From Desulfolutivibrio sulfoxidireducens (GTDB lineage Bacteria; Desulfobacterota; Desulfovibrionia; Desulfovibrionales; Desulfovibrionaceae), in contig NZ_CP045508.1 of NCBI RefSeq assembly GCF_013376475.1, positions 2,167,501 to 2,231,500 on the forward strand: 64,000 bases of DNA. Direction: 5' to 3'. A program made the position numbers and the translations under genes. The notes under the pieces were generated by a model. That model was given only the letters and a program-made list of their open reading frames with translations, did not search any database and was not told the DNA's origin. This document shows, piece after piece, positions 37,713 through 54,961 of this stretch (position 1 is the stretch's first letter; each line of letters opens with the position of its first letter).

Positions 37713-37888
37713 CTGTTCAATAACAGCTGTTTTGGAAACTTCTCTTGAGTTTAAAATATTTACTTGTCATCGCTACGTAATCAACTTCAATGTCTTTTAA
37801 TTAAATATAATAAAGATAAATGTTTCTGTTCATGTGTACTGGTCGTTTAAGAGTGGCCGCATCCAATGATCGGTCGAAAGAGGAAGTC

Positions 37889-39919
37889 ATGGCAAACGGG
37901 GATTCAAAAAGGCCTGGCGGTATTTTACCCATCGACGACTTGAATATGGTCAAGCCCATCACTCGGCGGAAGTTCATGAAATATTCCGTTGGAATGGCAG
38001 CAGCTCTCTATCTGGGCAGATCGATTTCAGGCTCTGCTGGCGCCTCGGTCAACGGTCAGGTTCCAACTTACCCGATTGATTCCACGGTCCTTACGACAAA
38101 AGACCGGGTGCTGGTATTTCCCGCTATTTCGCCGGGGCTCACGGCGTCCCAGCTTTCGCAGATATCCCAGTACAGTACGTACGGCTACGGCAACTATACG
38201 TTTGGGCCTGGGCTCGAGAACGTGCAGCGGACCGATATCATGCCGAACGGATACAGCAATGCTTCACCTCAAAGACTACACCAACTCTCAAGTTTCTTTT
38301 CCTTCACCGATGTCCATATCACCGACAAGGAATCCCCGAACCAGGTCATCTATACTCAGCAGGTTGATCCCTTTTGTTTTGCAAATTCTTCAATATATTC
38401 TCCTGTTATGATGTGTACGACTCAAGTTCTTGATGCCGCCATCCAAACGATAAACGCGCTTCACAAGACAACGCCGTTCGATTTCGGCATCTCCTTGGGA
38501 GATGTTAGCAATACTTCGCAACACAACGAGTTGAGATGGTATATTGACGTCATAGACGGCCAGGTCATTACACCCTGTTCCGGCGACCTGCGAGGGAACT
38601 TAACCATTGACTACCAAAAGACGTTCCAGGCCGCCGGACTCGACCCATCTATCCCCTGGTATCAGACTCTTGGCAACCATGATCATTTCTGGATGGGTAT
38701 CCTCCCGGTCGACGCCGATAGCACCCTCGGCCTTCGGCAATCGTATATCACCGATAACGTCATGGCTTCCGGATTATTAGCCCCTGTCGATGCTGGGGCG
38801 CTGTTCCCATGCATGTTCGATGTCTCGGCCATCCTGAAAGAGCGGTCTGATTACATGGGCGTGATCGATGGGGCAACCGCTGACGGCGCAATTGTCAAGG
38901 CTGGACCCATTGGACAGTACTCTTCGCCTCCGGCTGTCGCGGCGGACAGTGCTCGCTACGCGGTGACGAAGGCCCAATGGATGCAGGAATTTTTTCATAC
39001 AGCCACAACTCCAATCGGCCACGGCTTCAATCTGGTTGACCCTTCAAAAATTGAAAATGGTTTTGCCTGTTATAGTTTTGTCCCGAAGTCCGATATTCCG
39101 CTTAAGATTATCGTGCTGGATGATACCCAGTCGGATACCGACGGCTCCCACGATTTCCACGCACATGGATTCCTTGACGCCGAACGTTGGGGCTGGCTTC
39201 AGGATGAGCTTGCTGCTGGCCAGACGGCCAACCAGTTGATGATCATCGCCGCCCACATACCGATCGGTGTTACCCCCATCGGTTCCGATATGGAATGGTG
39301 GGAGTCTGACAAAGACCCGAACGCCACGGAACAAAATACCGTCTCTTTGAACGGATTAGTGAACGAACTCTGGAACACTCCGAATCTTCTCATGTGGATA
39401 TCGGGGCATCGCCATTTTAATACAATCAAAGCATTTCCATCACCCAATCCCAACACCCCTCAAAATGGCTTTTGGCAAGTCGAAACCTCTTCACTTAGGG
39501 ATTTTCCCCAACAGTTTCGAACATTCACGATACACCTGAATACAGACTATACCGTGTCCATCGTTGCAACCAACGTCGATCCGGCGGTGGCTGATGGAAC
39601 GCCGGCCGCAACATCACGTTATTACTCCATTGCAACGGAACAAATACTGCAAAATAACATTACTCCTAATACGCCGAATCTTAACAACTACAATGGTATT
39701 ACTCTCGAGACAATGGATCCTAGTCGAGCGCAGAATGGCGCTTTGGATCTGACTATCAAATGGCCCCTGGTGACTGGATATGGGCCGTTTCCATCCTTAC
39801 AAAGCGGCTTGTATGGTTCTCCTGTTACTAAAACAAATTCGTACCCGTCGAGCAATGCAGAGCTTTTCAAGCAGTTGAGTCCGACAATGATCGACGTTCT
39901 GAAGAAAAGGTTTCCCTAG
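37889..39919 (+). CDS. Tat-exported metallophosphoesterase (TIGR03768-like)
   Basis: 676 aa from the ATG at 37889 (SD GAGGAAG). The N-terminus has a twin-arginine signal (ITRRKFMKYSVGMAAALYLG). The calcineurin-type metal motifs occur in order: FTDVHITD, SLGDVSN, LGNHDHFW, IAAHIPIG and SGHRHFN. It resembles the TIGR03768 (RPA4764) group of large periplasmic phosphoesterases. The substrate is not known. It is AT-richer than host genes and lies inside the segment bounded by the two inverted IS copies, so it was probably acquired with it. Confidence 0.88.
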   Translation: MANGDSKRPGGILPIDDLNMVKPITRRKFMKYSVGMAAALYLGRSISGSAGASVNGQVPTYPIDSTVLTTKDRVLVFPAISPGLTASQLSQISQYSTYGYGNYTFGPGLENVQRTDIMPNGYSNASPQRLHQLSSFFSFTDVHITDKESPNQVIYTQQVDPFCFANSSIYSPVMMCTTQVLDAAIQTINALHKTTPFDFGISLGDVSNTSQHNELRWYIDVIDGQVITPCSGDLRGNLTIDYQKTFQAAGLDPSIPWYQTLGNHDHFWMGILPVDADSTLGLRQSYITDNVMASGLLAPVDAGALFPCMFDVSAILKERSDYMGVIDGATADGAIVKAGPIGQYSSPPAVAADSARYAVTKAQWMQEFFHTATTPIGHGFNLVDPSKIENGFACYSFVPKSDIPLKIIVLDDTQSDTDGSHDFHAHGFLDAERWGWLQDELAAGQTANQLMIIAAHIPIGVTPIGSDMEWWESDKDPNATEQNTVSLNGLVNELWNTPNLLMWISGHRHFNTIKAFPSPNPNTPQNGFWQVETSSLRDFPQQFRTFTIHLNTDYTVSIVATNVDPAVADGTPAATSRYYSIATEQILQNNITPNTPNLNNYNGITLETMDPSRAQNGALDLTIKWPLVTGYGPFPSLQSGLYGSPVTKTNSYPSSNAELFKQLSPTMIDVLKKRFP

Positions 39920-40109
39920 GGGAGACATGACGGGTTCCCTTGGGTTGCTTCTCTTGACACCCTGACTGGATATGGTGGCAAGCCGGTAAGGTGCTGGGAG
40001 AAGGTCGCCAATTTGAAGGAAATGACCCACGCCAACCAACTTCCCAGTGAGGTGGCTCCGTTTGGTTGGACAGTTTTGCGGCGAGGTTAAGCTATAGTCC
40101 GGTTGCTGC

Positions 40110-40964
40110 TCATGCCGCCTTCGAGGCCGATTGGCCTTCTCGGTATACATCCATGGGCCGACGACCGTCAAAAGCCGTATGCGGTCGCAGCTCATTGTAA
40201 AAACGGACCCAGTTTCCAATCGCCTGCCGGGCCTGGCTGCCGGTTTCCAACTCTCGCAGGTAGATGCACTCCCATTTCACCGAGCGCCACAGGCGTTCGA
40301 TGAAGACATTGTCCATCCACCGGCCCTTGCCATCCATGGAAATGGATACGTCGGCGTCCTTGAGGGTCTGGGTGAATTCCTGGCTGGTAAATTGTGACCC
40401 CTGGTCCGTGTTGAAGATTTCCGGAACACCATATCTCTCCATGGCTTCTTCCAAGGCGGCCACGCAGAAATCCGTATCCATGGTGTTGGACAACTGCCAG
40501 GACAGCACCGCCCGGCTGTGCCAGTCCATGATCGCCACCAGATACAGGAATCCTCGATTCATTGGCACATACGTGATATCGGCGCACCACACGTGCTCCG
40601 GTCGATCAATCTGTAAACCACGCAGCAGGTATGGGTAAACCTTGTGCTCAGGATGCGGGACGCTGGTCCTTGGTTTCTGATAAATGGCCATCAGCCCCAT
40701 CTTGCGCATCAAGCGCCGGACTCGAGCACGCCCCACCGCGATGCCCTGATTGTTTAAGTGCCGTTGCATCTGGCGTGACCCGTAAAACGGCGTCTCCAAA
40801 AATTGCTCGTCAATACGCCGCATCAGCTCGAGATTTACGACCTTTTCACCCGTAGGGCGATGATACCATGTCGACCTGGCCAGCCCGAGCATCCGGCACT
40901 GGCGGGAAATACTGAGTCGAGGATGATCACGATCAACCATCCCACGCCTTCGCTGGCGACTCAC
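40110..40964 (-). CDS. IS3-family transposase OrfB, copy 2 (full length)
   Basis: 284 aa. Nearly identical to copy 1 and with the complete C-terminus (RRPMDVYREGQSASKAA). The DDE residues are as in copy 1. GTG start overlapping orfA. Probably the functional transposase of the pair. Confidence 0.92.
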   Translation of the reverse strand: MSRQRRRGMVDRDHPRLSISRQCRMLGLARSTWYHRPTGEKVVNLELMRRIDEQFLETPFYGSRQMQRHLNNQGIAVGRARVRRLMRKMGLMAIYQKPRTSVPHPEHKVYPYLLRGLQIDRPEHVWCADITYVPMNRGFLYLVAIMDWHSRAVLSWQLSNTMDTDFCVAALEEAMERYGVPEIFNTDQGSQFTSQEFTQTLKDADVSISMDGKGRWMDNVFIERLWRSVKWECIYLRELETGSQARQAIGNWVRFYNELRPHTAFDGRRPMDVYREGQSASKAA

Positions 40965-41245
40965 CGTTTTGCGAAGGCTCGCTCTAAAAAATCCTTTTCC
41001 ACCGTGAGTTGGCCGATCTTGGCGTGCAATTCCTTGATCTGGGCAGCGGCATCTTTTTCCACGGCCGCCGTTTTCCCGGAAAAGGACGCCACCATGCCTT
41101 CCTTGGCCTGACGCTTCCAGCCCGCGATCACCGTTTGGTGTACGTCGTACTTGCTGGCCAACTCGCTCAAGGTCAACTCGCCGGACAGGGCTTCAAGCGC
41201 CACCTTGGCCTTAAACTCAGCCGAAAACTTCCGTCGCTTGGACAT
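40961..41245 (-). CDS. IS3-family transposase OrfA, copy 2
   Basis: 94 aa. HTH and zipper-like helix as in copy 1, with AQIKELHAKIG where copy 1 has AEIMELHAKIG. It lies upstream of orfB with a 4-bp overlap. Confidence 0.92.
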   Translation of the reverse strand: MSKRRKFSAEFKAKVALEALSGELTLSELASKYDVHQTVIAGWKRQAKEGMVASFSGKTAAVEKDAAAQIKELHAKIGQLTVEKDFLERAFAKR

Positions 41246-41329
41246 CGGAAACTATCCTCCTCGCTTGAGGACCATAGCTTAACCGACTGTCCAATTTTCC
41301 GCGACCACCTCACCTTTTTCTCTTACCTC

Positions 41330-41447: not shown

Positions 41448-42200
41448 ATGAAAGTTCCTTCCGTGGATGTTTCCACGATCTTCACCCGCTATGATCTGGA
41501 CCTTGAAGTGGCGAGGCAAAAAGCCCGCACTGTGTCGCAGGATGTTCTCCTGCAACGGGTTGCCGAATGCGTCGTGACCGGCGACGAGGAGGGAGTCGAG
41601 GCCGCGGTCCTGGAGGCCTTGAAGTCCAAGCAACCGTTGGAGGTCATCGACAGCGGCATGATCCCGGGCATGCGCGAGGTCAGCCGGCTCTGGGAGTTGG
41701 GGACCTATTTCCTGCCCCAGGTCATCTTGTCTTCCGACGCGATGATTGCGGGCATCGCCCTGTGCGAGCGCGAGCTGGGCCGGGCCGTGCTCAAGAAGGC
41801 CAAGGTGGTCACCCACACGGCGGAAGGCGACATCCACGACATCGGACAGGTGATCGTCAACGCGCTGCTCAACGCCGCTGGCTTCGAGGTCGTCAACCTG
41901 GGGGCGGACGTGCCCGTGGAGACCGTGATCGAGGCCTGCGTGGTGCACAAGCCGGTCCTGGTCACGGGCACGGCCCTGATGACCACGACCATGACCGCCT
42001 TTCCCAAGATCGCGGCGAAGCTCAAACAGGCTGGCATCTCCATTCCATTTGTCTGCGGTGGCGGGGCGGTCAGCGAGGAATTCGTGACCAGCTTCGACCA
42101 GGGCATCTGGGGCAAGGAGGCCGGCCAGGCCCCGGCCATGGCCGAGGACGCGCTCCGTGGTCTCGACTGGAAGGCGATGCGGGCCAAGTGGAACGGCTGA
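41448..42200 (+). CDS. mtaC: Corrinoid protein of a methyltransferase system (MtaC type)
   Basis: 250 aa from the ATG at 41448. An N-terminal helical B12-binding cap (QRVAECVVTGDEEGVEAAVL) is followed by a Rossmann domain with the base-off cobalamin signature DIHDIG (lower-ligand His) and the GTALMTTTM and FVCGGGAV loops. It carries the methyl group on cobalt between MtaB and the next acceptor. The mtaB gene follows 40 bp later. Related MtbC/MttC proteins look similar; the mtaB neighbour favours MtaC. Confidence 0.92.
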   Translation: MKVPSVDVSTIFTRYDLDLEVARQKARTVSQDVLLQRVAECVVTGDEEGVEAAVLEALKSKQPLEVIDSGMIPGMREVSRLWELGTYFLPQVILSSDAMIAGIALCERELGRAVLKKAKVVTHTAEGDIHDIGQVIVNALLNAAGFEVVNLGADVPVETVIEACVVHKPVLVTGTALMTTTMTAFPKIAAKLKQAGISIPFVCGGGAVSEEFVTSFDQGIWGKEAGQAPAMAEDALRGLDWKAMRAKWNG

Positions 42201-42240
42201 GCGCGGGAATCGCGGCGAACGCGAAGGAGGATCGAGCGAG

Positions 42241-43608
42241 ATGAAGCTGACCGATTCGATGGCCTACGAGCACCCCGGGGAGATGATCTTCGGCGCCGCC
42301 AAGTATCCGGTGCGGACGCGGCGCGGGCTGGTCCTCGGCGGTGGCTTCGTTGTCCCGGAGCTCACCTCCCACCCGCGTCCCGGCAGCGAGACTTCCATCA
42401 AGACCCTGCTGCGCGAATTCGAACGCGCCAACGGCGACGCGCTGGAGAGGTGCGTGGTTGTGGGCCTGCCCTGCCTCGTCGTCGAAAACGAGCATGTCTT
42501 CCAGATGACCCATGTTCCCGGCTGGGGTGGGGAGATCGCGGCCCAGACCGCCCGCCAGATCGACGACTATCACGACAAATACGGGCTCAAGGCCGCCTAC
42601 CGCTCCACCATCGCCGATATCCGCAAGCCGGACATGGTGGACATGCGCGATTCCGACCGGGCCCGGGCCGTGCTCGAGGCCTTCGAGGCCTGCGCGGCGC
42701 ACGCGGACATCGTGTCCATCGAATCCATGGGTGGCAAGGAGATCGCCGACCACGCCCTGATCCGCAACGATATCGTCGGCCTCCTTTTCGCCCAGGCCGT
42801 ACTCGGTGGCCGCGACATGGCGTGGCTCTGGCCCCAGATTGTGGCCATCGCCCACAAGCACGGCTGCATCCCGGGCGGCGATACCGACTGCGCCCGGGCC
42901 AACACGGCCATGTTCATGGCCGGCGGCTTCATTTCCAAGGACGTGCCGCACACCCTGGCGGCCATGGCCCGGGCCATGTGCGTGAGCCGCAGCCTGGTGG
43001 CCTACGAGTGCGGCGCCGTGGGGCCAGGCAAGGACTGCGCTTACGAGAACCCGATCCTCAAGGCCATCACCGGACTGCCCATGTCCATGGAAGGGAAGAG
43101 TAGCGCCTGCGCGCACATGAGCCTGTGCGGCAACGTCATGGCCGCGGTCTGCGACCTGTGGTCCAACGAGGCCGTGGAGTACCAGCACATGTTCGGCGGA
43201 AGCTCCTCGGCGGTGTTCACCGAGATTCTCGGCTACGATGCGGCGGCCATGAACTCGGCCCTCGCCCTGGGATACGAGCGCGAATACCAGGCCTGCCTGG
43301 TCAATTCAGACCGCTACCGCAGCCCGCACAGCTTCCTGCTCTGTCCGGACAACGCCTGGGCCATCGGCAAGGCCGTGGTGGACAATGCCAGCAGCCAGTA
43401 TGTCCGCGCCCGGGCCGCGGCCTTCGAGGGTGGCCGGTTGATGCTGGCCGACCCCCTGCTGCGCTTCACCGCCTTTGAAAAGGAGTCCCTGCTGGGCTAT
43501 CTCAAGGAACTCGAAGGGCTGCCGGACACGGAGGAGGACTTCATTGACCAGTGTCTGCACAAGTATCGCAAGGTCAAGGGGTTTCGACCGGCCTCTTACG
43601 GCCTGTGA
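42241..43608 (+). CDS. mtaB: Methanol:corrinoid methyltransferase MtaB
   Basis: 455 aa, normal for MtaB. The zinc-ligand regions known from the Methanosarcina enzyme can be seen as IVSIESMGGKE (Glu), GGDTDCARAN (Cys) and VAYECGAVGPGKDC (Cys). The start MKLTDSMAYEHPGEM has GGAGGATC upstream. It transfers the methyl group of methanol to the Co(I) corrinoid of MtaC. No MtaA (CoM or THF methyltransferase) is in the window, so the final acceptor, probably tetrahydrofolate, needs a partner elsewhere. Confidence 0.93.
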   Translation: MKLTDSMAYEHPGEMIFGAAKYPVRTRRGLVLGGGFVVPELTSHPRPGSETSIKTLLREFERANGDALERCVVVGLPCLVVENEHVFQMTHVPGWGGEIAAQTARQIDDYHDKYGLKAAYRSTIADIRKPDMVDMRDSDRARAVLEAFEACAAHADIVSIESMGGKEIADHALIRNDIVGLLFAQAVLGGRDMAWLWPQIVAIAHKHGCIPGGDTDCARANTAMFMAGGFISKDVPHTLAAMARAMCVSRSLVAYECGAVGPGKDCAYENPILKAITGLPMSMEGKSSACAHMSLCGNVMAAVCDLWSNEAVEYQHMFGGSSSAVFTEILGYDAAAMNSALALGYEREYQACLVNSDRYRSPHSFLLCPDNAWAIGKAVVDNASSQYVRARAAAFEGGRLMLADPLLRFTAFEKESLLGYLKELEGLPDTEEDFIDQCLHKYRKVKGFRPASYGL

Positions 43609-43617
43609 GAATGGGAC

Positions 43618-45300
43618 ATGAGCGGCCTGGGCATCGCTCTTGACCTGGGCACCAGCGGATTCAGGGCCCAGGCTCTGGACTTTGCCACAGCCGAGGTGCT
43701 GTCCACGGCCATCTCCACGCGCCACCCCCTGCCTGGGGCCAATGTTATGGACCACGTCCACTTCGCCCTTGAGATGGGCGGGGAGGCGGCGCGAGACATC
43801 GTGGTCCGGGCGGTCAACCGGCTGCTCGACGCCTTGCGCGTACCCCTGGACCGGGTCGAACGGCTGGCGATCTGCGGCAACCCCACACAGTTATCCTTGT
43901 TCCAGGCCCTGGACATCCGCGACCTGGCCTATGCGGGCAAGAGGTTGCTGGCACGGCTCGGCGTGGATCCTCCGACGAGGGACGCCGCGGTCGTGGACGT
44001 CGCGAAGTTCCCCGGGCTGGCCTTGCCCGCCGGCTGCCAGGTTCTCGTCCCCCCGGCCGTGCGCCACGAGGTCGGGGCCGACGCCCTGGCGCTGATTCTG
44101 CGCACCGGTATGCTTCATGGAGCGGACACCGCGGTGGCCATCGACTACGGCACCAACGCCGAGATCGCCCTGGTGCACCAGGGTCGCGTGCTGACTGGCT
44201 CCACCGCCGCTGGCCCAGCCCTGGAAGGCCAGCACATCGCTTGCGGGATGCTGGCCGCGCCCGGGGCCGTGGCCGACCTTGAACCCGACGCCGGGCTGCA
44301 TCGCCTCCACATTTTGGACCAGGCCATGCTTCCGGTACGAGGCCCGCTGGTCGATCTGCGCGGCGGGCCCTCCCGCGAAGCGTCTCTCGGGCCTCCTGCC
44401 CGCGGCATCACCGGCACCGGGACCATCGCGGCCATCGATCAGGGGCAGGAAGCCGGCTTGGTCGAGGCGCCGCGCATCGTCACAGCCGATCAGGCCCTGC
44501 ACCTGGGAGAGGCGCTGTACCTGACCGAAGCGGACCTGCTGGAGGCGGGCAAGGCCTTCGGCGCCGTGCGGGCCGGCATGATCACCCTGTGCCACGAGGC
44601 CGGCATCGAACTTGCGGCCATCCGCACCGCGTACATGGCCGGCGCCTCGGGTACCTACGTGGACGCGCGCAAGGCCCAGCGGTTGGGCCTGCTTCCGCCG
44701 CGGACGGAGCGCGTCTATCAGGTGGGCAACACCTCACTGGCCATGGCCAGGGAACTGGCCCTTGACCCCGGCCTCCTGGCGTCGCTGAGTCGGCTGGCCG
44801 GCCGGTTGCGCGAGTCGCACTGCATGTTCGCCACGTCCAAAGTCTTCGCCAAGGTCTTTCTGCTGGAGTTCTCGCACTGGACCGAGGGCATGCCCATGGA
44901 TCATTACCGGCGTTTCCTGGTCAGATACGGCCTGCCCGACCTCCCGCCGCTTGGGGCCGCGCCTGAGATCGAGCGGCTGGTGGAGCGGGACATAGATGAC
45001 CTGGGCCGCATGGGTCTGACAACCATCCCGGACATCGGCGACGTGGAGCGTCGGTCCTTCGAGGGTTGCATTGTCTGTGGCGCCTGCGTGGAGGCCTGCC
45101 CGGAACATGCCCTGACCCTCGACCGCGAGGCCGCGCCGCCCGCACTGGTTCTGGACCAGGCCTTGTGCAACGGCGTGGCCTGCGGGCGTTGCGAACGCGC
45201 CTGTTCGGAGAAGGTATTTCGTCTGGAGCGCTTCTTTCGGCCTTCGGGAGACGATGGCCGCCGAGACGCTGAACGGACCATGGAAAATCAGGCACCCTGA
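43618..45300 (+). CDS. RamA/RACo-type corrinoid reductive activase
   Basis: 560 aa. An ASKHA fold (IALDLGTSGFRAQ, AIDYGTNAEIAL, GTGTIAAID) resembles the DUF4445 ATPase domain. The C-terminus has two Fe-S cluster motifs, CIVCGACVEACP and CNGVACGRCERAC, as in methanogen RamA. RACo proteins carry an N-terminal [2Fe-2S] domain instead, so this is the RamA architecture. It uses ATP to return oxidised Co(II) corrinoid to Co(I). It starts 9 bp after mtaB. Confidence 0.9.
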   Translation: MSGLGIALDLGTSGFRAQALDFATAEVLSTAISTRHPLPGANVMDHVHFALEMGGEAARDIVVRAVNRLLDALRVPLDRVERLAICGNPTQLSLFQALDIRDLAYAGKRLLARLGVDPPTRDAAVVDVAKFPGLALPAGCQVLVPPAVRHEVGADALALILRTGMLHGADTAVAIDYGTNAEIALVHQGRVLTGSTAAGPALEGQHIACGMLAAPGAVADLEPDAGLHRLHILDQAMLPVRGPLVDLRGGPSREASLGPPARGITGTGTIAAIDQGQEAGLVEAPRIVTADQALHLGEALYLTEADLLEAGKAFGAVRAGMITLCHEAGIELAAIRTAYMAGASGTYVDARKAQRLGLLPPRTERVYQVGNTSLAMARELALDPGLLASLSRLAGRLRESHCMFATSKVFAKVFLLEFSHWTEGMPMDHYRRFLVRYGLPDLPPLGAAPEIERLVERDIDDLGRMGLTTIPDIGDVERRSFEGCIVCGACVEACPEHALTLDREAAPPALVLDQALCNGVACGRCERACSEKVFRLERFFRPSGDDGRRDAERTMENQAP

Positions 45301-45343
45301 CACGTCCCGCGTCACGAGACCATTGCGCGGCAGGAACGAATCC

Positions 45344-46117
45344 ATGGGAACCCTGGGCCTTATCACCTGCGAAATGCTGGAACTCGAGTTCGCCTGGCTC
45401 CTTGCCGGCGACCCCGATGTTCAGCGCATCGCCATCGTGGAGAACGCCCGCTCCAGGCGGTTTGTCGAGGCCCTGGAGCGCCACGGTCGTAGTGGGGTGG
45501 AGAGCATCCCCCACCCCGCCGCCTTTCGTCCCGAGCCAATGGCAGGGTTGGAAGTCGTGGTCCGGGTGCTCGAAGCGGCCCTGCACCGTTGCCGCAGTGT
45601 TCTGCGCAAGGCTCTGCGGGAGACGGCCCTCGAATTGTCACCACATGTGGATGCTCTGATGCTGGGCTATGGCCTGTGCGGCAACGCCCTGGAAAACCCC
45701 AGGGAATCCTTGGACGTCGGGGTTCCGATCTTCATTCCCATGGACGGGGCACAGCCGGTGGACGACTGCGTGGGTATGCTTCTGGGCGACCGGGAACGCT
45801 ATCTGGCCCAGCAACTGCAGGTTCCCGGCACTTTCTTCATGACCCCGGAGTGGACCGTGCACTGGAAAGTATTTTTCGGCCAGGATTGCGTGGTGCCTGA
45901 CGATACGCTAATGAAAAGAATATTCCAGGGATACGAGCGGGTCTTGCTGATCGAAACCCCGGTCATGTCCCTGGAAACGATGCGTCGCAACATAGAGGCG
46001 TTTCGCAGCCGACTTGGCTTGCGGGTGGAGACGTGCGTCGGCACCTTGAATCTGCTGCGCGCGGCCTGGGAAGCGGCAAAAGGCGAACTGATCGCCCGGC
46101 CGGATCGGGAATCCTGA
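45344..46117 (+). CDS. DUF1638 protein of the methyltransferase operon
   Basis: 257 aa from the ATG at 45344 (SD AGGAAC). An earlier in-frame start at 45254 would overlap the activase gene. Typical DUF1638 features are present: the N-terminal ITCEMLELEFAWLL, the GYGLCGNA motif, and FFMTPEWTVHW. The family is repeatedly found with methylamine and methanol methyltransferases, but its biochemical role is not established. The conserved Cys in LGYGLCGN and a buried Cys in LITCEML could be functional. Confidence 0.82.
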   Translation: MGTLGLITCEMLELEFAWLLAGDPDVQRIAIVENARSRRFVEALERHGRSGVESIPHPAAFRPEPMAGLEVVVRVLEAALHRCRSVLRKALRETALELSPHVDALMLGYGLCGNALENPRESLDVGVPIFIPMDGAQPVDDCVGMLLGDRERYLAQQLQVPGTFFMTPEWTVHWKVFFGQDCVVPDDTLMKRIFQGYERVLLIETPVMSLETMRRNIEAFRSRLGLRVETCVGTLNLLRAAWEAAKGELIARPDRES

Positions 46118-46148
46118 ACCTGCGACCCGTCCAGTGGGACCGCGCCTG

Positions 46149-49100
46149 ATGTTGGGATATGGCATGCGACTTTCACAACTGATGCTTGACGATCTCCCCC
46201 TCCTGCACAACGGGGCACATTGCCTAGTCCTGGCCGGGACATCCGCCCACGGCCAACCTGCGGCCATCAAGCTCCTCAAGAGTGAGGCCATCACCCCGGA
46301 GGCCCTCTCGCGGCTGGCCAACGAGTACGCGCTCGGCAAGGATCTGGGAGGCCCCGGCCTGCGCTGCGCGTTGGAGAGCATCCAAATCGAAGGCCGGCCG
46401 GCCCTGGTCCTGGAATACATTGACGGCCAGACCCTGCGGCAGGCCTATGTCGCCAGCCGGCGACCGCTCCTTGACGTCCTGACCGTTGCCGCTTCCGCAG
46501 CCAACGCGCTGCATCGGCTGCATCACCTGGGCATGGTGCACCGGAACCTCAGCAGCGACAACATCCTGGTCGATGCCGCTGGCCAGCAGGCGACCCTCAT
46601 CGACTTCGGCCTCGCGGCCCGGGTCGATCCCAGCATCGGCCATCTGGGCGTGCCCGACGCCCCGGTGGGCTCTCTGGCCACCATGGCGCCGGAACAGTCC
46701 GGCTGGATCGACCGGCCCGTGGACGGCAGGGCCGATCTTTATTCCCTGGGCGTCGTGATCTACGAGATGCTCGTCGGCAAACCGCCCTTTGCCGCGGAGG
46801 GGACCACCGAGCTGATCCACTGCCACCTGGCCAAAACGCCCACCCCACCCCAAACAATTGATGCGGCCATCCCCCAGGTTCTGTCCGACATCGTCATGTC
46901 GCTGCTGCGAAAGGACCCGGACGAACGCTACCGCTCGGCCTATGGCGTATGGGCCGATCTGGAACGCTGCCGTGACGCCATGGCCACAAGCGGTGCAGTG
47001 GCCTCCTTCCCCTTGGGCCAGGACGATAGCTCCGGCCTCTTTCGTATCCCTCTCACCTTGTACGGCCGCGACCGCGAGTTCCAGACCGCCCTGAGGGCCT
47101 TCGAACGTGTGGGTCTGGGCTCCGGCGAATTCCTGATGATTAGCGGCCCAGGCGGCGTGGGCAAGACCGCCCTGGCTGAAAGAGTTTGTAAGGCCGTGGC
47201 CGAACGAGGCGGCCGCTGCATCGAGGGACACTGTGACGCCTACCAGATGCATACGCCGTACTACGGTCTGATGCGGGCACTTGCCGAACTGGTCGAGCAG
47301 ATGCTCGCCGAAAGCGCGGGCTGGCTGGGCCGAACCAGGGCGGCCATCATGCGGGCCGTGGGCGCCAACGCGGCGCTGCTCGTCGAGGCCATTCCGACGC
47401 TGGAGTTGATCATCGGCACGCCCGCACCCGTCCAGGACCCGGGCACCAAGGAATCCCAGAGCCGCTTCCAGCACGCCCTGCTAGGCCTTCTGCGCTGCGT
47501 GGCCAGCGAAGGCCGGGGTCTGGTCCTCTATTTGGACAACCTGCAGTGGGCGGACGCGGCCACCTTGGAGTTTCTCGCAGCGCTTGGGACCGAGATCGGC
47601 CGGCTGCGCATGCTCGTGGTGGGCGCCTTTCGCGACGACGAGGTCGGCGCCGGGCATCTTCTGGAGACCCTGTTCGCCGACCTGAAGCGTCGCGGGGCGC
47701 CACTGGCCAGGCTCCGGCTGGAAAGCCTGCCCGCCGCCGCACTCGCCGGACTGGTCGCGGACACCCTGGGCGGCGACGCGGATCACGCCCAGCCCCTGGC
47801 CGAGCTGATCCACAAGAAATCCGGGGGCAATCCTTTCGCGGCGGTCCAGTTCTTCCAGTCCCTGCATCAGAACGGGCATCTGGTCTTCGATGACGCGGCG
47901 CGGCGCTGGGTCTGGGACGAGGAGGCGATCCGCAGCATGGACGTCGCCGACAACATTGCCCGGCTGATGGCCGACAGGGTCGAGGGCCTGCCCGAGGCCA
48001 CCAGGGGGCTGCTGTCACTGGCCGCGTGTCTGGGCGCCGCCTTTGACCTGGAAAGCTTGGCCGAGCTTGCCGGACAAGGCCCCCAGCAGGTAGTGGACAG
48101 CCTGGGCCCCGCCCTTGCCGACGGACTCCTCAGGCCTGGGGCCTTGCGCCGCCGGTCCTCGGGTCCGTGCCACGGGCCGCCGGTCGATGCGACGGTCCGT
48201 TTCGAGTTCCCCCATGACAGAGTTCGCAGGGCTTGTTACACCAGTCTTCCCATCAAGCGCAGGCGGGCGATGCATCTCGACATCGGCCGGCTGCGGCTGC
48301 GTGGCACGCCCGAGGCCGAACTGGAGAGCCGCATCTATGACATCGTGGACCAGCTCAACGAAGGATTCCAGTATGTTGTGGAAGAGCAGGAAAAGCTACG
48401 GCTGGCCGAACTCAATCTGATCGCCGGCCGGCGGGCCAAGCGCGAGGCCGCCTACATGGCGGCCATCCGCTATCTGAGCATGGGCATTGGCCTGCTTCCC
48501 TCCGACCGCTGGGAAAGCCACTACGACCTGAGCATGCAGCTCTACATGGAAGCGGTCGAGGCCGAGTATCTGAGTTCCAACTTCGATCGCGCCGAACTGC
48601 TCTCCACCGAGGTCCTGCGGCACGCGCGGGAAATCCTTCCCCGCATCGCCATCCACGAGTTGCGCGTCCTGTTTCTCGCCGCCCAGCAGCGACATGCCAC
48701 GGCGATCCGGGCCGGGCTCGAGGCACTGGAATTCCTGGACGTCCATATCCCCACCACAGCCGAGCAGCGTGAAAAACAGGTCGAAGGTCTGCGCCGGGAC
48801 TTGGCCGCGGCCATCGATCGGGTCGAAGACGTGACCCACCTGCCGCCCATGACCGATCCGAAGCGACTGGCCGCGTTGCGGATCATGACGCACTTGGCCG
48901 CGCCGGCACATCAGACCGACTCAGCCCTGCTGGAGGACCTCGTCCTCACCATGGTCCTGACCTCCGTCCGGCACGGCAATTCGGCACTGGCGGCCGTTGC
49001 GTACGGTTGGTACGCGGCCCTGCTTTGCGGGACTTACGGGGACGTCGAGGGGGGCTATCGGATCGGCCAGGTGTCCCTCGCCGTGCACCGGCAGCACCGG

Positions 49101-52100
49101 TCCATGGGGCTGGAGGCCAAGATCACGGTCCTGTTCAACGTCTTCGTGCGCCACTGGAAGGAGCATGCCGGGGGGACGATCGCGGACCTGGAGTGGGCCG
49201 CGCAACGGGGTATGGAAGCCGGGGACATGGACTACGCCACCCTGGCCTGCGTCCACGCCTGTGAACATCTGTTTTTCAGCGGCGCCCCGCTGGAGCGGGT
49301 CCGCGACCAGGCGGCCGAGTGCCTGGCCATGGCGGAACGCTTTAATCTGACCTTTCCCGACAGTCTCGGGAGGATATGGGCACAAACCATCCAGAACCTC
49401 ATGGTCGATGCCGCGGACCCCAGCCGCCTGATCGGCTCTTTCATGGACGAAGCCAGTGCGCTGCCCGTCTGGATGGAATACAACGAGAACATCCTGGCAT
49501 TCCAAACCCTTGGAAACCGGACCATGCTCCAGTACCTGTTCGGCGATCATCTTGGGGCCATCGAATCGGCTCGGCTCGCGGAAGTGTATGCATCCGCCGG
49601 GGCAGGCTCTCTCTCCTCGGTGCAGAACCTGTTTTACGCGGCCTTGGCCCACCTTGCCCGATGCCAGGACGCGGACGTGGACTCCGAGGCCCGTCGCGGA
49701 TATCTGGAAAGGGCCGCGGCCTGCCAGAAACGATTGTCGGGTTGGGCCGAGCACGCGCCCATGAATGTCCGGCACAAATGCGACCTGATCGAGGCCGAAC
49801 TGGCACGCAACGCCGGGGATACATCCCGGGCCATGCTGTCCTTCGGCCGGGCCCTCCACGGCGCCAGGGAGAACGGGTATATCCAGGAGGAGGCGCTGGC
49901 CTACGAGCGCGAAGCCGACTTCCACCAGGCCACGGGTCGTGACGACCTGGCCAGCGCGTGCGTGCGCAAGGCGGCCGACCTCTACCGTCTCTGGGGCGCG
50001 ACGTGCAAGTCCAAAGCACTCGAACGACGCCATCAGGGACTGCTGCGTCGGGAAGGATGTCTCGCCCTGGACACGGCGGCCATCCTCGAGGCCACGCAGA
50101 CCATCTCCCAGGAACTGCGGCTGGAACAGTTGCTGGAGCGGATGGTGCAAACGCTCATGCAACATGCCGGCGCCGAAAAGGGCGTCCTGATCGAGAACAA
50201 GGACGGCAACCTGCTGGTTCAGGCCGTGGGCGCCGTTGATCGCGAGCGCGTGGAAACCATGCGGGGGACGCCCGTGGAGCAATGCACCGAGGTTCCCCTG
50301 ACCGCCGTGAACTATGTGATGCGGACCCGGACGCCCCTTGTGCTCCACGACGCTGCGGGCAACAGCGCTTTTGCCGGTGATGCCTACATTTTCAGGCACA
50401 AGACCAAGTCCCTGCTGTGCCTGCCCATCCTGCACCAGGCGCGGCTCTCCGGGATCATGTACCTGGAGAACAACAAGGCGACCCACGTGTTCACCGCCTC
50501 GCGCCTGGAGCTGCTCAAGGCCCTGTCCTCGCAGGCCGCGATTTCCATTCAAAATGCCGTGCTCTATGCCGACCTGGAAACGAGCGTCCAGGAGCTTGAA
50601 CGCGCCAGGGAGGCCCTGGCCACGCGAATGGGCTACGAGAAGGGCCTATCCGCCTGCTCCCAGACCCTGCTGCTCGACGGCCATGGCCATGGCTCCTTGA
50701 GCCAGGCCCTCGCACACCTGCTTGTCGCCGCTGATGTGAGCCGGGCCTATCTCTTCGAAAATTTCGAGGATGCCGCTGACGGACTGTGCATGCGCCAGAC
50801 CCAAGAAGCCTGCGCCCCGGGGGTGACGCCTCAGATCGACAACCCCCTCTTGCAGCACGTGCCGTACAGCATGGGTTTTGAACGTTGGAAGGACATCCTG
50901 TCCGCCAACAAGCCCGTTGTCGGCTTGGTGGAGGAGCTTCCCCTCCAGGAGCAGGACATCCTGAAGGCCCAGGAAATCCTCTCCATCATGGTGCTCCCGA
51001 TTTGGGTCAAGGGCAGTTGGTACGGCTTCATCGGCCTCGACGACACTCGAAATCGCCGCCAGTGGAACGAACAGGGCCTCCAGCTCCTGGAAGCCGCGTC
51101 ATCCCTCATCGGGAACTACATCGAACGCAAACAGGCCGCGGAAGCTCTGCAGAAAAGCCAGGCGCGCTACCAAGGCCTCTTCGAGGACTCGCCCCACTCC
51201 CTCTGGGAGGAAGACTTTTCCGCTGTCCGCGCCTTCCTGGACGACCTGCGGGCCTCCGGCGTCAGCGACGTGCGAGCCTATTTCGATGCAAACCCCGAGG
51301 CCGTGGCCAACTGTGCCGCGCTGGTCAAGGTCTTGGACGTCAACGCCAGCACGGTCGATTTGTTCAAGGCCCCGAGCAAGGAGGCGTTCCTGGCTGGACT
51401 GTCGCGCATCTTCACCCCACAAGCCTTTGACATCTTTCGCGAGGAACTCATCGGTCTGGCCTCCGGCACCCTTCATTTCCAGGCCGAGGCCGAACAGCGC
51501 ACCTTCGACGGCGACGTCCTCTATGTGGTCCTGCGATTGAGTGTGGCGCCGGGCAGCGAATGCAGCCTGGAGCGTGTTCTGGTGTCCCTGGAGGACATCA
51601 CTCAGCGCAAACGAGCCGAGAAGGCCCTGGAAGAGTTGAACAAGACACTGGAAAAACTCGTTGACGAGCGTACCACCGAACTCCAATTGCGATCGCAGGA
51701 ATTGGAAGCCGCCTACATCCGCCTCCAGGAGATGGACGCCCTGAAGTCGACCCTCATGGACACGGTCTCGCACGACTTGCGTACACCGTTGACGTCCATC
51801 CTGGGCTTCGCCAAGATCATTCTGCGCGACTTCACCCGGTTCTTCCACGAGCCGACCAGGAGCAAGGACGATCTCGCCCTTCGCCGCGCAACGCGCATCC
51901 AGGACAACCTTTCGATCATCGTCACCGAGGGCGAGCGGCTCACCAGGCTGATCAACGACTTTCTTGACCTGTCCAAGATTGAGTCCGGCCGCCTGCAGTG
52001 GCGCGACCGGGAGGTGGCGGTGGCGGTGGTCGTCAGCGGTGCCGTGAACGCCGTGCACGGGGAGTTCATGGCTAAAAAGACCGTCACCCTGACCTCGGAC

Positions 52101-52490
52101 GTGGCCCAGAACCTGCCATTGCTACGCATCGACCCCGACCGGCTGGAGCGGGTGCTCATCAACCTCTTGAACAACGCGGCCAAGTTCACCGAAACGGGCA
52201 CGGTCACGTTGCGGGCCTTTCTCTCCGAACAAGGCCTCCTGCGCTTAGTGGTCCAAGACACGGGAGTGGGCATTCCCGAGCACGAGTTGGAGAGGATCTT
52301 TGACAAATTCCACAAGGTGGAGTCCAGCAACAACGGACCCAAAGAAAGGCCTGGCGGCACAGGGCTTGGCCTTTCCATCTGCAAGGAGATCGTCCAGCAC
52401 TACGGTGGTCGCATCTGGGCCGAGTCCCGACTCGGCGAGGGAAGCGCCTTGCACATCGAACTACCCGCGACTCTCTTCATTGCAACGTGA
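46149..52490 (+). CDS. Giant Ser/Thr-kinase-like / AAA ATPase / GAF / histidine kinase fusion
   Basis: 2113 aa from the ATG at 46149; 46164 (ATG) and 46134 (GTG) are alternatives. In order: a protein-kinase fold (about 6-280) with AAIKLL and LIDFGLA but HRN for the catalytic HRD (GMVHRNLSSDN, near 131); a STAND-type ATPase with Walker A SGPGGVGKTAL (about 331) and LVLYLDNLQWAD (about 460); a long helical region; two GAF domains (about 1310-1470, 1497-1655); a PAS-like segment; a coiled coil; HisKA (DTVSHDLRTPL, His about 1875); and HATPase_c (NLLNNAAKF, GTGLGLS). It ends the mta operon, 31 bp after DUF1638, with no receiver gene nearby. Probably its sensor. Confidence 0.92.
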   Translation: MLGYGMRLSQLMLDDLPLLHNGAHCLVLAGTSAHGQPAAIKLLKSEAITPEALSRLANEYALGKDLGGPGLRCALESIQIEGRPALVLEYIDGQTLRQAYVASRRPLLDVLTVAASAANALHRLHHLGMVHRNLSSDNILVDAAGQQATLIDFGLAARVDPSIGHLGVPDAPVGSLATMAPEQSGWIDRPVDGRADLYSLGVVIYEMLVGKPPFAAEGTTELIHCHLAKTPTPPQTIDAAIPQVLSDIVMSLLRKDPDERYRSAYGVWADLERCRDAMATSGAVASFPLGQDDSSGLFRIPLTLYGRDREFQTALRAFERVGLGSGEFLMISGPGGVGKTALAERVCKAVAERGGRCIEGHCDAYQMHTPYYGLMRALAELVEQMLAESAGWLGRTRAAIMRAVGANAALLVEAIPTLELIIGTPAPVQDPGTKESQSRFQHALLGLLRCVASEGRGLVLYLDNLQWADAATLEFLAALGTEIGRLRMLVVGAFRDDEVGAGHLLETLFADLKRRGAPLARLRLESLPAAALAGLVADTLGGDADHAQPLAELIHKKSGGNPFAAVQFFQSLHQNGHLVFDDAARRWVWDEEAIRSMDVADNIARLMADRVEGLPEATRGLLSLAACLGAAFDLESLAELAGQGPQQVVDSLGPALADGLLRPGALRRRSSGPCHGPPVDATVRFEFPHDRVRRACYTSLPIKRRRAMHLDIGRLRLRGTPEAELESRIYDIVDQLNEGFQYVVEEQEKLRLAELNLIAGRRAKREAAYMAAIRYLSMGIGLLPSDRWESHYDLSMQLYMEAVEAEYLSSNFDRAELLSTEVLRHAREILPRIAIHELRVLFLAAQQRHATAIRAGLEALEFLDVHIPTTAEQREKQVEGLRRDLAAAIDRVEDVTHLPPMTDPKRLAALRIMTHLAAPAHQTDSALLEDLVLTMVLTSVRHGNSALAAVAYGWYAALLCGTYGDVEGGYRIGQVSLAVHRQHRSMGLEAKITVLFNVFVRHWKEHAGGTIADLEWAAQRGMEAGDMDYATLACVHACEHLFFSGAPLERVRDQAAECLAMAERFNLTFPDSLGRIWAQTIQNLMVDAADPSRLIGSFMDEASALPVWMEYNENILAFQTLGNRTMLQYLFGDHLGAIESARLAEVYASAGAGSLSSVQNLFYAALAHLARCQDADVDSEARRGYLERAAACQKRLSGWAEHAPMNVRHKCDLIEAELARNAGDTSRAMLSFGRALHGARENGYIQEEALAYEREADFHQATGRDDLASACVRKAADLYRLWGATCKSKALERRHQGLLRREGCLALDTAAILEATQTISQELRLEQLLERMVQTLMQHAGAEKGVLIENKDGNLLVQAVGAVDRERVETMRGTPVEQCTEVPLTAVNYVMRTRTPLVLHDAAGNSAFAGDAYIFRHKTKSLLCLPILHQARLSGIMYLENNKATHVFTASRLELLKALSSQAAISIQNAVLYADLETSVQELERAREALATRMGYEKGLSACSQTLLLDGHGHGSLSQALAHLLVAADVSRAYLFENFEDAADGLCMRQTQEACAPGVTPQIDNPLLQHVPYSMGFERWKDILSANKPVVGLVEELPLQEQDILKAQEILSIMVLPIWVKGSWYGFIGLDDTRNRRQWNEQGLQLLEAASSLIGNYIERKQAAEALQKSQARYQGLFEDSPHSLWEEDFSAVRAFLDDLRASGVSDVRAYFDANPEAVANCAALVKVLDVNASTVDLFKAPSKEAFLAGLSRIFTPQAFDIFREELIGLASGTLHFQAEAEQRTFDGDVLYVVLRLSVAPGSECSLERVLVSLEDITQRKRAEKALEELNKTLEKLVDERTTELQLRSQELEAAYIRLQEMDALKSTLMDTVSHDLRTPLTSILGFAKIILRDFTRFFHEPTRSKDDLALRRATRIQDNLSIIVTEGERLTRLINDFLDLSKIESGRLQWRDREVAVAVVVSGAVNAVHGEFMAKKTVTLTSDVAQNLPLLRIDPDRLERVLINLLNNAAKFTETGTVTLRAFLSEQGLLRLVVQDTGVGIPEHELERIFDKFHKVESSNNGPKERPGGTGLGLSICKEIVQHYGGRIWAESRLGEGSALHIELPATLFIAT

Positions 52491-52504: not shown

Positions 52505-52535
52505 GTCGCCCCCCGCGCGGGGGCGTGGATTGAAC
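52505..52535 (+). CRISPR. Solitary type I-C-like CRISPR repeat
   Basis: 31 bp beginning GTCGCCCCCCGCGCGGGG and ending GTGGATTGAAC. It matches the well-known 32-bp type I-C repeat pattern except for one missing A in the terminal GAAAC. It contains the expected GC hairpin. No second copy, leader or cas gene is present; an IS begins 87 bp downstream. It could be an array remnant, or the hairpin may simply end the kinase transcript. Confidence 0.55.
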
Positions 52536-52652
52536 CTGATGCAATCGATTGCACTGCGTTCGGGTCTTTGGGCTCTTCCCGAAAATACGGGGGGAGGCCC
52601 AGCCCCGATTCCAAATCAAACTGGAGTTGCCCCCGCTAAACCGGACACCAGT

Positions 52653-53582
52653 TTAAGAACGTTGGCCACGCCCCGCCGCCGTCCGGCCGCCTCCGACGAG
52701 CTCGTTGGCGGCCCATTCTCGGCGGCGGGCCGTCGGCTTACTCCGCAGTGACTCGCCAGCAACACACATCCGTATGAACTCACGAGGCGACATCATCTTC
52801 AGCCCTTTGTGCGGATGGATTTCGTTGTAATCCTCGAACCATGCCGCAAGCTGGCTCAGGACGGTCCGGGCATCTGGACGATCGTTGACGTACACGTAAT
52901 CGCGTTTGAAGGTCTTCACGAACGCCTCGGCCATGCCGTTGCTCTCCGGGCTTCTGACCGGGGTGAACCTGCTAACCAGGCCCAGCCAGGACGCAAATTC
53001 CACAGTCTCCTTGGCCGTGAAGCAGGAGCCGTTGTCGGTCAGCCACTCCAAACGGTGCGGCGCATGGCTCGTCCCGAATCGTTTCTCCACGCATTCCAGC
53101 ATCATATCCCGCACCATGGCGCCGGAGATGCCCCCTGTCGCGGCCACAAAGCCGATGATTTCCCTATCGCAGCAATCCAGGGCGAACGCCACCCTGACCT
53201 TCTCGCTGTTCAAGCATCCAATCTCGAAAGCATCAGCACACCAGCGCAGATTGCTCCGCAGCATGATGACCTTGCCATCATGAGACCGCTCTGGACGCTT
53301 GCCGGTGTGCCTGGCCAAAAGCAGGCCGTAAAGGCGCATGATCCGATACACGCGCTTGTGGTTCACCCGTGCCTGCCCCAGTTCCACGAGACGCCGGTTC
53401 AGCAGGGCGCACACTCGCCGGTAGCCGTAGGTCAGCCGACCATCGACGATCTCACGGATCAAAGGCAGCAGGACTTCGTCCTGGGCCTTGGAATAACGGA
53501 GAGGGCGATTCCTTGGGCCGGTCGCCAGTCGTTCGGACAACTGCGAACGGGCCACGTCGAACGCCTCCGCCACCCGTTTCAC
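52653..53582 (-). CDS. IS2-like transposase OrfB
   Basis: 309 aa. An HTH_21 region (IREIVDGRLTYGYRRVCALL) precedes a DDE core with Asp in RWCADAFEIG, Asp in WLTDNGSCF and Glu in GMAEAFVKTFK. GTG start overlapping orfA by 4 bp. The last 30 residues run into the terminal repeat region. Appears intact. Confidence 0.92.
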   Translation of the reverse strand: MKRVAEAFDVARSQLSERLATGPRNRPLRYSKAQDEVLLPLIREIVDGRLTYGYRRVCALLNRRLVELGQARVNHKRVYRIMRLYGLLLARHTGKRPERSHDGKVIMLRSNLRWCADAFEIGCLNSEKVRVAFALDCCDREIIGFVAATGGISGAMVRDMMLECVEKRFGTSHAPHRLEWLTDNGSCFTAKETVEFASWLGLVSRFTPVRSPESNGMAEAFVKTFKRDYVYVNDRPDARTVLSQLAAWFEDYNEIHPHKGLKMMSPREFIRMCVAGESLRSKPTARRREWAANELVGGGRTAAGRGQRS

Positions 53583-53977
53583 AGGAAATCCTCCTCGAAA
53601 GGCAACGGCGTGCGCGATATCAGTTTTTTTTCGCGCGCGATCTTGATGCCTTCCTTGAGAATTTCCACCTCCATGGTCTTCTTGCCCAGGAGTCGTTCCA
53701 GCTCGCGAACCCGCTTCTTGAGAGCACGAGCCTCCGAAGCGCTGACCACTTGGTCGTCCGCCTGTACAGCCACCTTGCCGCCCTCGCTCATGAGCTTCCT
53801 CCAGTGGAAGAGCTGGTTTGGTGCGATGCCGTGCTTGCGGGCGACGTACGAGACGCTCATCCCTGGCAGGGACGACTCCTCCACGATCCGAAGCTTCTCC
53901 GACAATGGCCAGCGCCGACGCTGGACCTCGTTGACCAACTCGACCGTGGCGAACTCGTTAGCACTATGTCTGGACAT
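53579..53977 (-). CDS. IS2-like transposase OrfA
   Basis: 132 aa. HTH (EKLRIVEESSLPGMSVSYVA, HGIAPNQLFHWRKLM) followed by a coiled-coil helix (RALKKRVRELERLLGKKTME). Together with OrfB it forms the transposase, probably through coupled or frameshifted translation. Confidence 0.9.
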   Translation of the reverse strand: MSRHSANEFATVELVNEVQRRRWPLSEKLRIVEESSLPGMSVSYVARKHGIAPNQLFHWRKLMSEGGKVAVQADDQVVSASEARALKKRVRELERLLGKKTMEVEILKEGIKIAREKKLISRTPLPFEEDFL

Positions 53978-54040
53978 ACCTCTAGACCTATCTCCTAGGT
54001 TGAAGAGGGTGTCCGGTCGAATTGGGGGCTACTCCAGTTT

Positions 54041-54524
54041 AGAAGTATGCAAACAATCAAATGTGTATTCAACACAATACACAAAGAAATTGGTAGGCGC
54101 AGAAATAGATGCAAAAAATATTATTAAATCTATTGTTTTGCAGCAACAAGGTCGATATAATTCTTTTTTAACGCATTTCATGTCAGGGTTCCAAGATACA
54201 AAACACAAAATGTATAAATGGATTATTTTCCCTTTTTTAACAGAAGCGATAGACAGGATCAGCCAAGGGTTTAAACTTTCAGAAATAAGAAAAATATTGG
54301 CTGGTTACCATCCGCAACGAGAAAAATTAAACCCAGGAAACATTACACAAGCTCTTCAGTACGTGTCGAGTTTACAGGTAAAGAAGGAGATTAAACCGAT
54401 AATTATTGATTATGATCAAACAGATTTGCGACTTGCTATAGTTGATAAAGATTTTATTGTTTGGCTTGAAAATGTTGACAGAAATGAGTTGCTTGAATCG
54501 TATGGTTTACCAAAACCATCTTGA
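54041..54524 (+). pseudogene. 3' part of an AT-rich gene cut by the IS
   Basis: About 160 residues in frame, from EVCKQSNVYSTQYTKKLVG to ELLESYGLPKPS. The sequence is strongly AT-rich, unlike the host. The segment has helical character (FLTEAIDRISQGFKLSEIRK) and an acidic end (IDYDQTDLRLAIVDKD). I do not recognise a family. The 5' part is not found to the left of the IS, so the gene is broken and rearranged. Likely foreign origin. Confidence 0.6.
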
Positions 54525-54726
54525 ACCACATAATGAGTACAAAATGTGCATAGGACAGTATGTACAGAGTGTACAAAGATAGTATTCACCTGACAGTGCC
54601 GTCACAGGCCGGGCCGTCCGTGAAACCGCCCGCCCCCCCGGAACACGGACCCGGGCTTGCCGGGTGAAACCAATTCAGGCCAACTTTAATCCCACCCAGT
54701 CGGATGAAAGTTTTTGGCCGATTTCT

Positions 54727-54916
54727 TTAATCGGCCATACCGCCCGCCTCGTCCGGCCCGCTCACAATGTCCAGAATGCCCGTGGCGGCATAGGTCTTGG
54801 CGCGCCGTCCGCCGCGCCTGCCGCAAGGCCCCGATAGCTTCCAGCTTGGCCACGGCGCTTTTGGCCGCAGGGTACGATACTCCCAGGACCTCGCCCCCCA
54901 CGGGGTCTGACCGCAA
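54727..54916 (-). pseudogene. Frameshifted C-terminal fragment resembling a Fic-family protein
   Basis: One frame reads LGVSYPAAKSAVAKLEAIGAL and another frame continues KTYAATGILDIVSG. Together they resemble the winged-helix end of Fic proteins. A frameshift separates them and no Fic core (HPFxxGNGR) is present. The call rests on this short similarity. The 200 bp before it show nothing else. Confidence 0.4.
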
Positions 54917-54961
54917 GCTGATCCCGGGCCATGGCCGTCATGGAGGCCATGCGGGTGCGGC

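Follow-up and report, generated by a model that had tools for sequence, protein, structure and literature searches.

The locus studied here, a five-gene run with mtaC and mtaB in a stretch of 64,000 nucleotides from Desulfolutivibrio sulfoxidireducens (contig NZ_CP045508.1, positions 2,167,501 to 2,231,500; the whole stretch is called the window), has one of its closest described counterparts in the MtaABC system of methanogens, acetogens and Desulfotomaculum (Desulfofundulus) kuznetsovii. According to the passages cited from the work on the latter, two MtaA proteins are abundant there together with MtaB and MtaC, and it has been suggested that MtaB can serve as a marker gene for organisms that use methanol anaerobically (PMC5770442). 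A 2024 survey found mtaB in 1.6% of its metagenome-assembled genomes (MAGs), and the words kinase and sensor are absent from its text (PMC11264602). The role of DUF1638 was left open in the cited part of the study by Price et al. (PMC5764234), and shuffling of HisKA modules is reported, in the section referred to, for cyanobacterial fusions of Ser/Thr kinases (STK) with histidine kinases (PMC2176072).

In the window, the genes for MtaC, MtaB, a RamA-type activase, a DUF1638 protein and a giant kinase of 2.1 kaa (thousand amino acids) all lie on one strand at 41448-52490, with intact frames and with gaps of 40, 9, 43 and 16 bases between them, and Pfam and NCBIfam matches confirmed each gene, in agreement with the packed run of the original prediction. 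Judged from sequence comparison, this five-gene cassette is a horizontally moving unit across diverse phyla. The original prediction had supposed that such a regulatory type was undescribed, and no description of the cassette was found in open-licence papers.

Recurrence and inheritance of the cassette

The GTDB species collection was scanned for MtaB with six short peptide patterns and the best 80 of 91 relatives were followed, so the survey is not exhaustive. In 23 of these 80 loci, MtaB of at least 63% identity was encoded (L002-L022, L027 and L045), and in 11 of the 23 the genes for RamA, DUF1638 and the giant kinase stood behind mtaB in the same order as in the window (L002, L004, L005, L008, L010, L011, L012, L014, L015, L016 and L027). 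Nine of these 11 loci show MtaC; in the two others, the contig begins just before or within mtaB. At L027, the kinase is truncated by the contig end. The record titles name Desulfobulbaceae, Methylococcaceae/Methylococcales, a gammaproteobacterial symbiont, Aegiribacteria/Sabulitectum, Opitutaceae, Bacteroidales and Phycisphaerae, all labelled as MAGs except Opitutaceae EW11. The fixed link of the kinase with methyl metabolism that had been predicted is thus repeated, far beyond chance, in 11 more loci of other phyla.

Two further loci (L009 and L017) have MtaC, MtaB, RamA and DUF1638 without the giant kinase, beside PAS/GAF signalling genes. The remaining 10 show neither DUF1638 nor the kinase (L003, L006, L007, L013, L018-L022 and L045), the region downstream of RamA being out of view in L006, L019 and L045, where the contigs end. 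When the neighbours of six of these 10 loci were scanned, CobW proteins adjoined L003, L006, L013, L018 and L045, sigma-54 regulators were present at L018 and L045, and L018 and L007 neighboured a URO-D protein and a spore-photoproduct-lyase-like protein, respectively. The other 57 of the 80 loci gave no match to the Ser/Thr kinase or ATPase part of the kinase within the DNA available for them (blastp, E 1e-5). Within the family of the window, MtaB was found in one of 288 genomes, the window's own. Each of the 24 genomes examined (14 that carry the cassette or the variant lacking the kinase, and 10 controls with other related MtaB loci) shows a single MtaB, and hence no second, catabolic copy was seen. 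A plasmid-borne cassette was also considered and was not found, the plasmid collection holding no MtaB.

The first 1320 residues of the window kinase served as query (E 1e-60) for giant kinases, which were found in 33 of the 288 family genomes and in 25 of 395 from the phylum, the window's genome being in both; with its own copy excluded, the best of these matches was a partial one with 38% identity. To a tree, each locus contributed a single frame of 1000 residues or more, leaving out L145 and L179 (shorter), L178 (short matched range) and second kinase matches without a locus in the family and phylum searches; outside the window's phylum, the sample comprised kinases from MtaB loci and plasmids only. 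The 12 MtaB-linked kinases formed one clade among 66 giant kinases with support 1.0, and the clade was kept with the same support among 71, after the addition of five plasmid-borne kinases (cyanobacteria, Rhizobium, Rufibacter). In the same alignment, the window kinase is 40-46% identical to 10 cassette relatives and 31% to that of L015, the most divergent one, and at most 34% identical to the other 54 kinases. The best plasmid-borne kinases are about 36% identical; three of the five plasmid records were inspected with annotation and showed no corrinoid gene by the kinase, the other two being unannotated there. An unrelated distribution of the kinase, which would refute the original prediction, was looked for within this sample: the superfamily is widespread without MtaB, but the MtaB-linked kinases are a separate clade, of which MtaB-free members may exist in other phyla.

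Pairwise distances among the five cassette proteins were correlated with coefficients of 0.64-0.91 (10 loci, window included; L011 and L027 excluded), and at most one in 5000 permutations was as high. In all but one of 11 loci, the distance of the first aligned kinase residue from the DUF1638 stop is between -18 and +12 nt; the exception is L014, with 243. By its common clade, co-divergence and like spacing, the cassette moves and evolves as a unit.

Receiver-domain genes were found beside the cassette or its variant in seven of 13 loci, downstream in L002, L005, L008, L011 and L016 and upstream in L014 and L017, hybrid kinases and a protein of HD-GYP type being among their products; in four others, no receiver gene was seen or the contig ends. 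As further observations on these surroundings, a gene for an iron-containing alcohol dehydrogenase lies between two PAS-protein genes upstream of the kinase-free run of L009 (4749-5927), and phosphonate-binding-type periplasmic domains are encoded in L014 (20433-21365, continued in L188) and L009 (14325-15320), from Bacteroidales/Bacteroidetes, one of them being fused to a histidine kinase.

Anatomy of the kinase and of the methyl-transfer proteins

The window kinase shows the HstK-type domain order STK-ATPase-GAF-HisKA-HATPase. The original prediction had called it trifunctional, a word in what we take to be the NCBI name for HstK-type kinases. The Walker A Lys (K344 in the window) is kept in 12 of 12 cassette kinases and the H-box His (H1880) in all 11 readable ones, that of L027 being cut. 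The Ser/Thr activity is doubtful, as the HRD Asp is Asn in the window (residue 138) and is gone from all 12 cassette kinases (Asn in 10, Lys in one, Ala in one), and the DFG Asp is lost in three. The domain is therefore, on its residues, best read as a pseudokinase. Loss of catalytic Ser/Thr kinase residues is also common elsewhere in this superfamily, the HRD Asp being kept in 27 of 52 readable non-cassette giant kinases, with seven of 59 gapped there.

In an AlphaFold2 (AF2) model, residues 690-1481 formed a helical superhelix followed by the GAF domain (mean predicted local distance difference test, pLDDT, 85.1), and the best Foldseek matches of this model were mostly TPR proteins; TPR superhelices usually bind other proteins. 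When the cassette kinases were compared with that of the window, the mean identity per 40 residues was 0.25-0.68 up to residue 1480, with the GAF domain among the most conserved parts, and 0.05-0.35 beyond. The front half shares 43-47% identity with its five best matches among the cassette kinases from other phyla, and no host relative of residues 1-1480 was found among 29 host loci compared; in a search of the whole host genome, only two other proteins resembled the Ser/Thr kinase part (32-34%), and a single one matched the GAF part. In contrast, the transmitter of the window kinase shares 47-54% identity with the five host kinases closest to it versus 33-37% with the five best cassette kinases. 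These identities point to a conserved receptor half coupled to an exchangeable histidine kinase as output module, which in the window is similar to kinases native to the host.

When aligned over the length of the protein with 2i2x_A, the MtaB of Methanosarcina barkeri (E 3.9e-136), the window's MtaB keeps all three residues that match E164, C220 and C269 of that chain, presumably the MtaB Zn ligands in 2i2x numbering. MtaC matched M. barkeri MtaC (2i2x_B, E 2.9e-58) with an intact DxHxxG cobalt-ligand motif. As both score below their NCBI equivalog cut-offs (633.6 vs 720 for MtaB and 250.5 vs 420 for MtaC), methanol is the likely, not the certified, substrate. RamA exceeds the TIGR04270 cut-off (726.9 vs 500 bits), with RACo_C_ter and Fer4 domains present.

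In DUF1638, residues C9, H81, C112, D141 and C142 are invariant across 19 aligned sequences, and this Cys/His/Asp set suggests a metal or cofactor site. For the AF2 model (mean pLDDT 90.6), Foldseek returned nothing with an E value of 0.001 or lower, and a second comparison (VIA) put Asp/Glu-racemase-like chains on top (Z 10.0, 114 residues, 2.9 Å), at most a tentative resemblance. A role of DUF1638 as a substitute for MtaA was rejected, because its apparent mutual exclusion with MtaA at MtaB loci fails genome-wide. DUF1638 is present elsewhere in eight of 10 control genomes and, in some genomes with the cassette (G002 and G008, for example), adjoins URO-D genes; therefore, it is a general corrinoid accessory. 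In the latter two genomes (loci L200 and L202, titled Methylococcaceae), a URO-D gene stands next to DUF1638 and a RACo activase, a group that looks like a second corrinoid methyltransferase system.

Fate of the methyl group and proposed function

The absence of MtaA that had been noted holds for the whole host genome, which gave 0 matches to PF01208 (URO-D) and none to TIGR01463 (MtaA). Neither MtrH nor a stand-alone pterin:corrinoid methyltransferase was found in it, the Pterin_bind matches being MetH and a frame similar to FolP. The originally predicted route of the methyl group to tetrahydrofolate is therefore left without an enzyme, and the host, a single contig of 4,155,851 bases with a completeness of 99.96%, is a firm case of a missing acceptor methyltransferase. 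Among the genomes compared, MtaA above the TIGR01463 cut-off was found in none of the 14 cassette or variant genomes vs eight of the 10 controls, MtrH in one (G012, a Methanospirillaceae archaeon) vs six, and stand-alone pterin methyltransferase candidates in three (G004, with 54 bits, G009 and G013, the archaeon aside) vs all 10. For these last counts, Pterin_bind matches were sorted into FolP, MetH and others by bits and frame length, save for the host MetH and an AcsE-like enzyme of G009.

As the cassette is usually found without a recognised methyl-using enzyme, it may be a methanol detector and not a catabolic system. The explanation that we prefer, which we hold to be a little short of probable, is that the five genes are a horizontally moving module that senses a methyl donor, probably methanol; that a corrinoid methyltransferase serves as the receptor, travelling between phyla as a ready-made methanol sense, is proposed tentatively. 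MtaB would methylate the Co(I) corrinoid of MtaC, and this capture of methanol as methyl-cobalt would be the recognition event, whereas RamA with DUF1638 would reset the system by bringing oxidised Co(II) back to Co(I). Because there is no second methyltransferase and the MtaB step is reversible in principle, the methyl-Co/Co(I) ratio would track the donor concentration. From methyl-MtaC onward, the steps that we infer are that the TPR front half, putatively binding MtaC or the MtaBC complex, would discriminate methyl-Co from Co(I), that ATP at the AAA_16 domain would be the switch for this reader half, and that the histidine kinase would phosphorylate response regulators, adjacent in several other cassettes and elsewhere in this genome.

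This reading is favoured by the recurrence, single clade and co-divergence of the cassette, by the missing acceptor enzymes with one MtaB per genome, by the contrast between the two kinase halves and by the signalling genes beside the cassette and its variant without the kinase. Several observations weigh against this explanation. In the MtaB tree, cassette and kinase-free MtaB interleave (L005 and L011 with L007, support 0.998), so that MtaB itself shows no sensory specialisation, and a separate sensory MtaB clade was rejected for the same reason. There was no direct sign of the presumed contact of the kinase with MtaC. No response regulator adjoins the kinase of the window, nor was the single downstream gene scanned at L004 or at L010 a signalling gene. 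The absences are also soft in most cassette genomes, as these are MAGs. Of the 14 cassette or variant genomes, 10 encode URO-D proteins that stay under the MtaA cut-off (169 bits at most, reached in G009), with HemE of the control genomes scoring under it likewise; the AcsE-like enzyme of G009 is encoded next to formate-tetrahydrofolate ligase, and in G005, at about 10 kb from mtaB, a URO-D gene is accompanied by a B12 protein of its own. These URO-D and AcsE-like proteins could act as acceptor enzymes in their genomes.

The main and serious rival, which we consider rather unlikely, is catabolic use of methanol with an unrecognised acceptor enzyme, the kinase being a dedicated regulator that would turn the operon on under suitable methanol or redox conditions. 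The intact active-site residues of MtaB and MtaC are consistent with it, as are the sharing of one run by the kinase and its supposed targets, the related kinase-free MtaB loci in genomes that bear MtaA (eight of 10) and the weaker URO-D proteins just described, and ties between regulator and methyltransferase genes have a precedent in MsmS/RdmS, as given in the part of that work cited (PMC6944256). However, in a complete host without URO-D, MtrH or a stand-alone pterin methyltransferase, the acceptor step would need an enzyme of an unrecognised kind. It is improbable, in our judgement, that the signal is instead redox state or oxygen, with the kinase guarding the corrinoid system and methanol playing no part as a signal. 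Co(I) is easily oxidised, the conservation of the GAF domain would fit, and cassettes occur in Methylococcales, which are aerobes. MsmS and RdmS of Methanosarcina are themselves redox sensors that regulate methyl sulfide genes, according to the same passages (PMC6944256). Such a sensor would nevertheless leave the retention of an acceptor-less methyltransferase unexplained.

A supply of methionine is likewise improbable, whether methyl-MtaC passed its methyl group to homocysteine via the host MetH or RamA and DUF1638 served MetH, the kinase sensing that state. The host MetH (a frame of 848 aa, L113) matches four Pfam families, none of them a reactivation domain, and may therefore need a RamA-like partner; methionine synthesis in Phaeobacter needs RamA-like and DUF1638 genes, as stated in the passages on these genes (PMC5764234). 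Yet MetH has its own corrinoid domain, no methionine gene was present among the cassette neighbours scanned, and the other 287 genomes of the family lack MtaB and presumably make methionine. Finally, we regard it as very improbable that the genes are passengers or a decaying island without shared function, a reading disfavoured in spite of the IS3 elements on both flanks and the restriction of MtaB to a single family genome, because all five frames are intact and the linkage recurs in 11 other loci with like spacing and co-divergence.

If a branch of MtaB cassettes does sense methanol and does not consume it, as in the detector that we prefer, the reading of MtaB as a marker would be wrong for those genomes. 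The cassette would then be a concrete and testable methanol receptor, it would give DUF1638 a partner and a context, and it would show, unusually, how a catalytic B12 system has become the input for signalling.

Flanks of the locus and comparison with known systems

The positions of the five genes, of the kinase domains and of the flanking insertion sequences are collected in Table 1. The upstream IS3 element is separated from the mtaC start by 134 bases. Further upstream, an IS3-type transposase gene with rve and HTH_21 domains lies on the + strand (35854-36678), and a gene for a TIGR03768 metallophosphoesterase (37820-39919) stands between it and that element. Just past the kinase stop, at 52505-52536, there is one copy of a CRISPR-repeat-like sequence, with no other in the window; it has one mismatch to what we take to be the repeat consensus (chance expectation 0) and is read as a remnant or an insertion scar. 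On the far side of the second element, the segment 54040-54524 is AT-rich (GC about 0.48 across 54000-54999) and contains an open frame resembling a truncated foreign gene of which the tail is left.

Table 1. Genes, kinase domains and flanking elements of the cassette locus in the window
Feature	Position	Strand	Basis
IS3-family element, upstream of mtaC	40047-41313	-	inverted repeats and transposase match
mtaC, corrinoid protein, 250 aa	41448-42200	+	Pfam/NCBIfam: B12-binding_2 and B12-binding
mtaB, methanol:corrinoid methyltransferase, 455 aa	42241-43608	+	PF12176, 650 bits
ramA, corrinoid reductive activase, 560 aa	43618-45300	+	TIGR04270; ASKHA domain and C-terminal ferredoxin
DUF1638 protein, 257 aa	45344-46117	+	PF07796, 117 bits
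Giant kinase, 2118 aa	46134-52490	+	Pfam: Pkinase, AAA_16, GAF, HisKA, HATPase_c
STK-like pseudokinase domain (best reading)	kinase residues 27-266		Pfam
AAA_16	kinase residues 308-496		Pfam
TPR superhelix	kinase residues about 690-1310		AF2 model and Foldseek
GAF	kinase residues 1330-1472		Pfam; variable linker after it
HisKA	kinase residues 1871-1952		Pfam
HATPase_c	kinase residues 2000-2113		Pfam
Different IS3-family element, IS2-like transposase, downstream of kinase	52619-54039	-	ends approximate, judged by eye

Compared with the systems described so far, the window shares with MtaABC the MtaB and MtaC proteins with conserved Zn and cobalt ligands and a RamA-type activase, whereas MtaA is missing from both the run and the host genome, and DUF1638 and the giant kinase stand in the run instead. 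Activase and DUF1638 also act together on one corrinoid system in the methionine synthesis of Phaeobacter; there, however, the RamA-like and DUF1638 proteins serve a split methionine synthase, and no kinase is mentioned in the passages on them (PMC5764234). Sensing of methanol through the enzyme that processes it, as proposed here, has a parallel in the methylotaxis receptors of Methylobacterium, which, as far as the cited part describes them, involve methanol dehydrogenases and chemoreceptors and not corrinoid methyl transfer with a kinase (PMC10613068).

Among sensor kinases, MsmS and RdmS of Methanosarcina are likewise tied to methyltransferase genes and have GAF/PAS domains, but the sections cited describe them as sensing redox state through heme or thiols, with more than one PAS/GAF domain and without a His that can be phosphorylated (PMC6944256). 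The cassette kinase differs in placing what would be a pseudokinase-AAA-TPR-GAF receptor before a canonical HisKA, and in belonging to one co-inherited cassette that crosses phyla. The HstK-type dual kinases of cyanobacteria (cbSTKIII) combine STK, GAF and HisKA in one protein, as the window kinase does, according to the portion of the work on them cited here (PMC2176072), and plasmid-borne Nostoc relatives of this type are about 36% identical to it across the front half. In contrast to these, the cassette kinases form a clade of their own, lack the STK catalytic Asp and are tied to MtaB.

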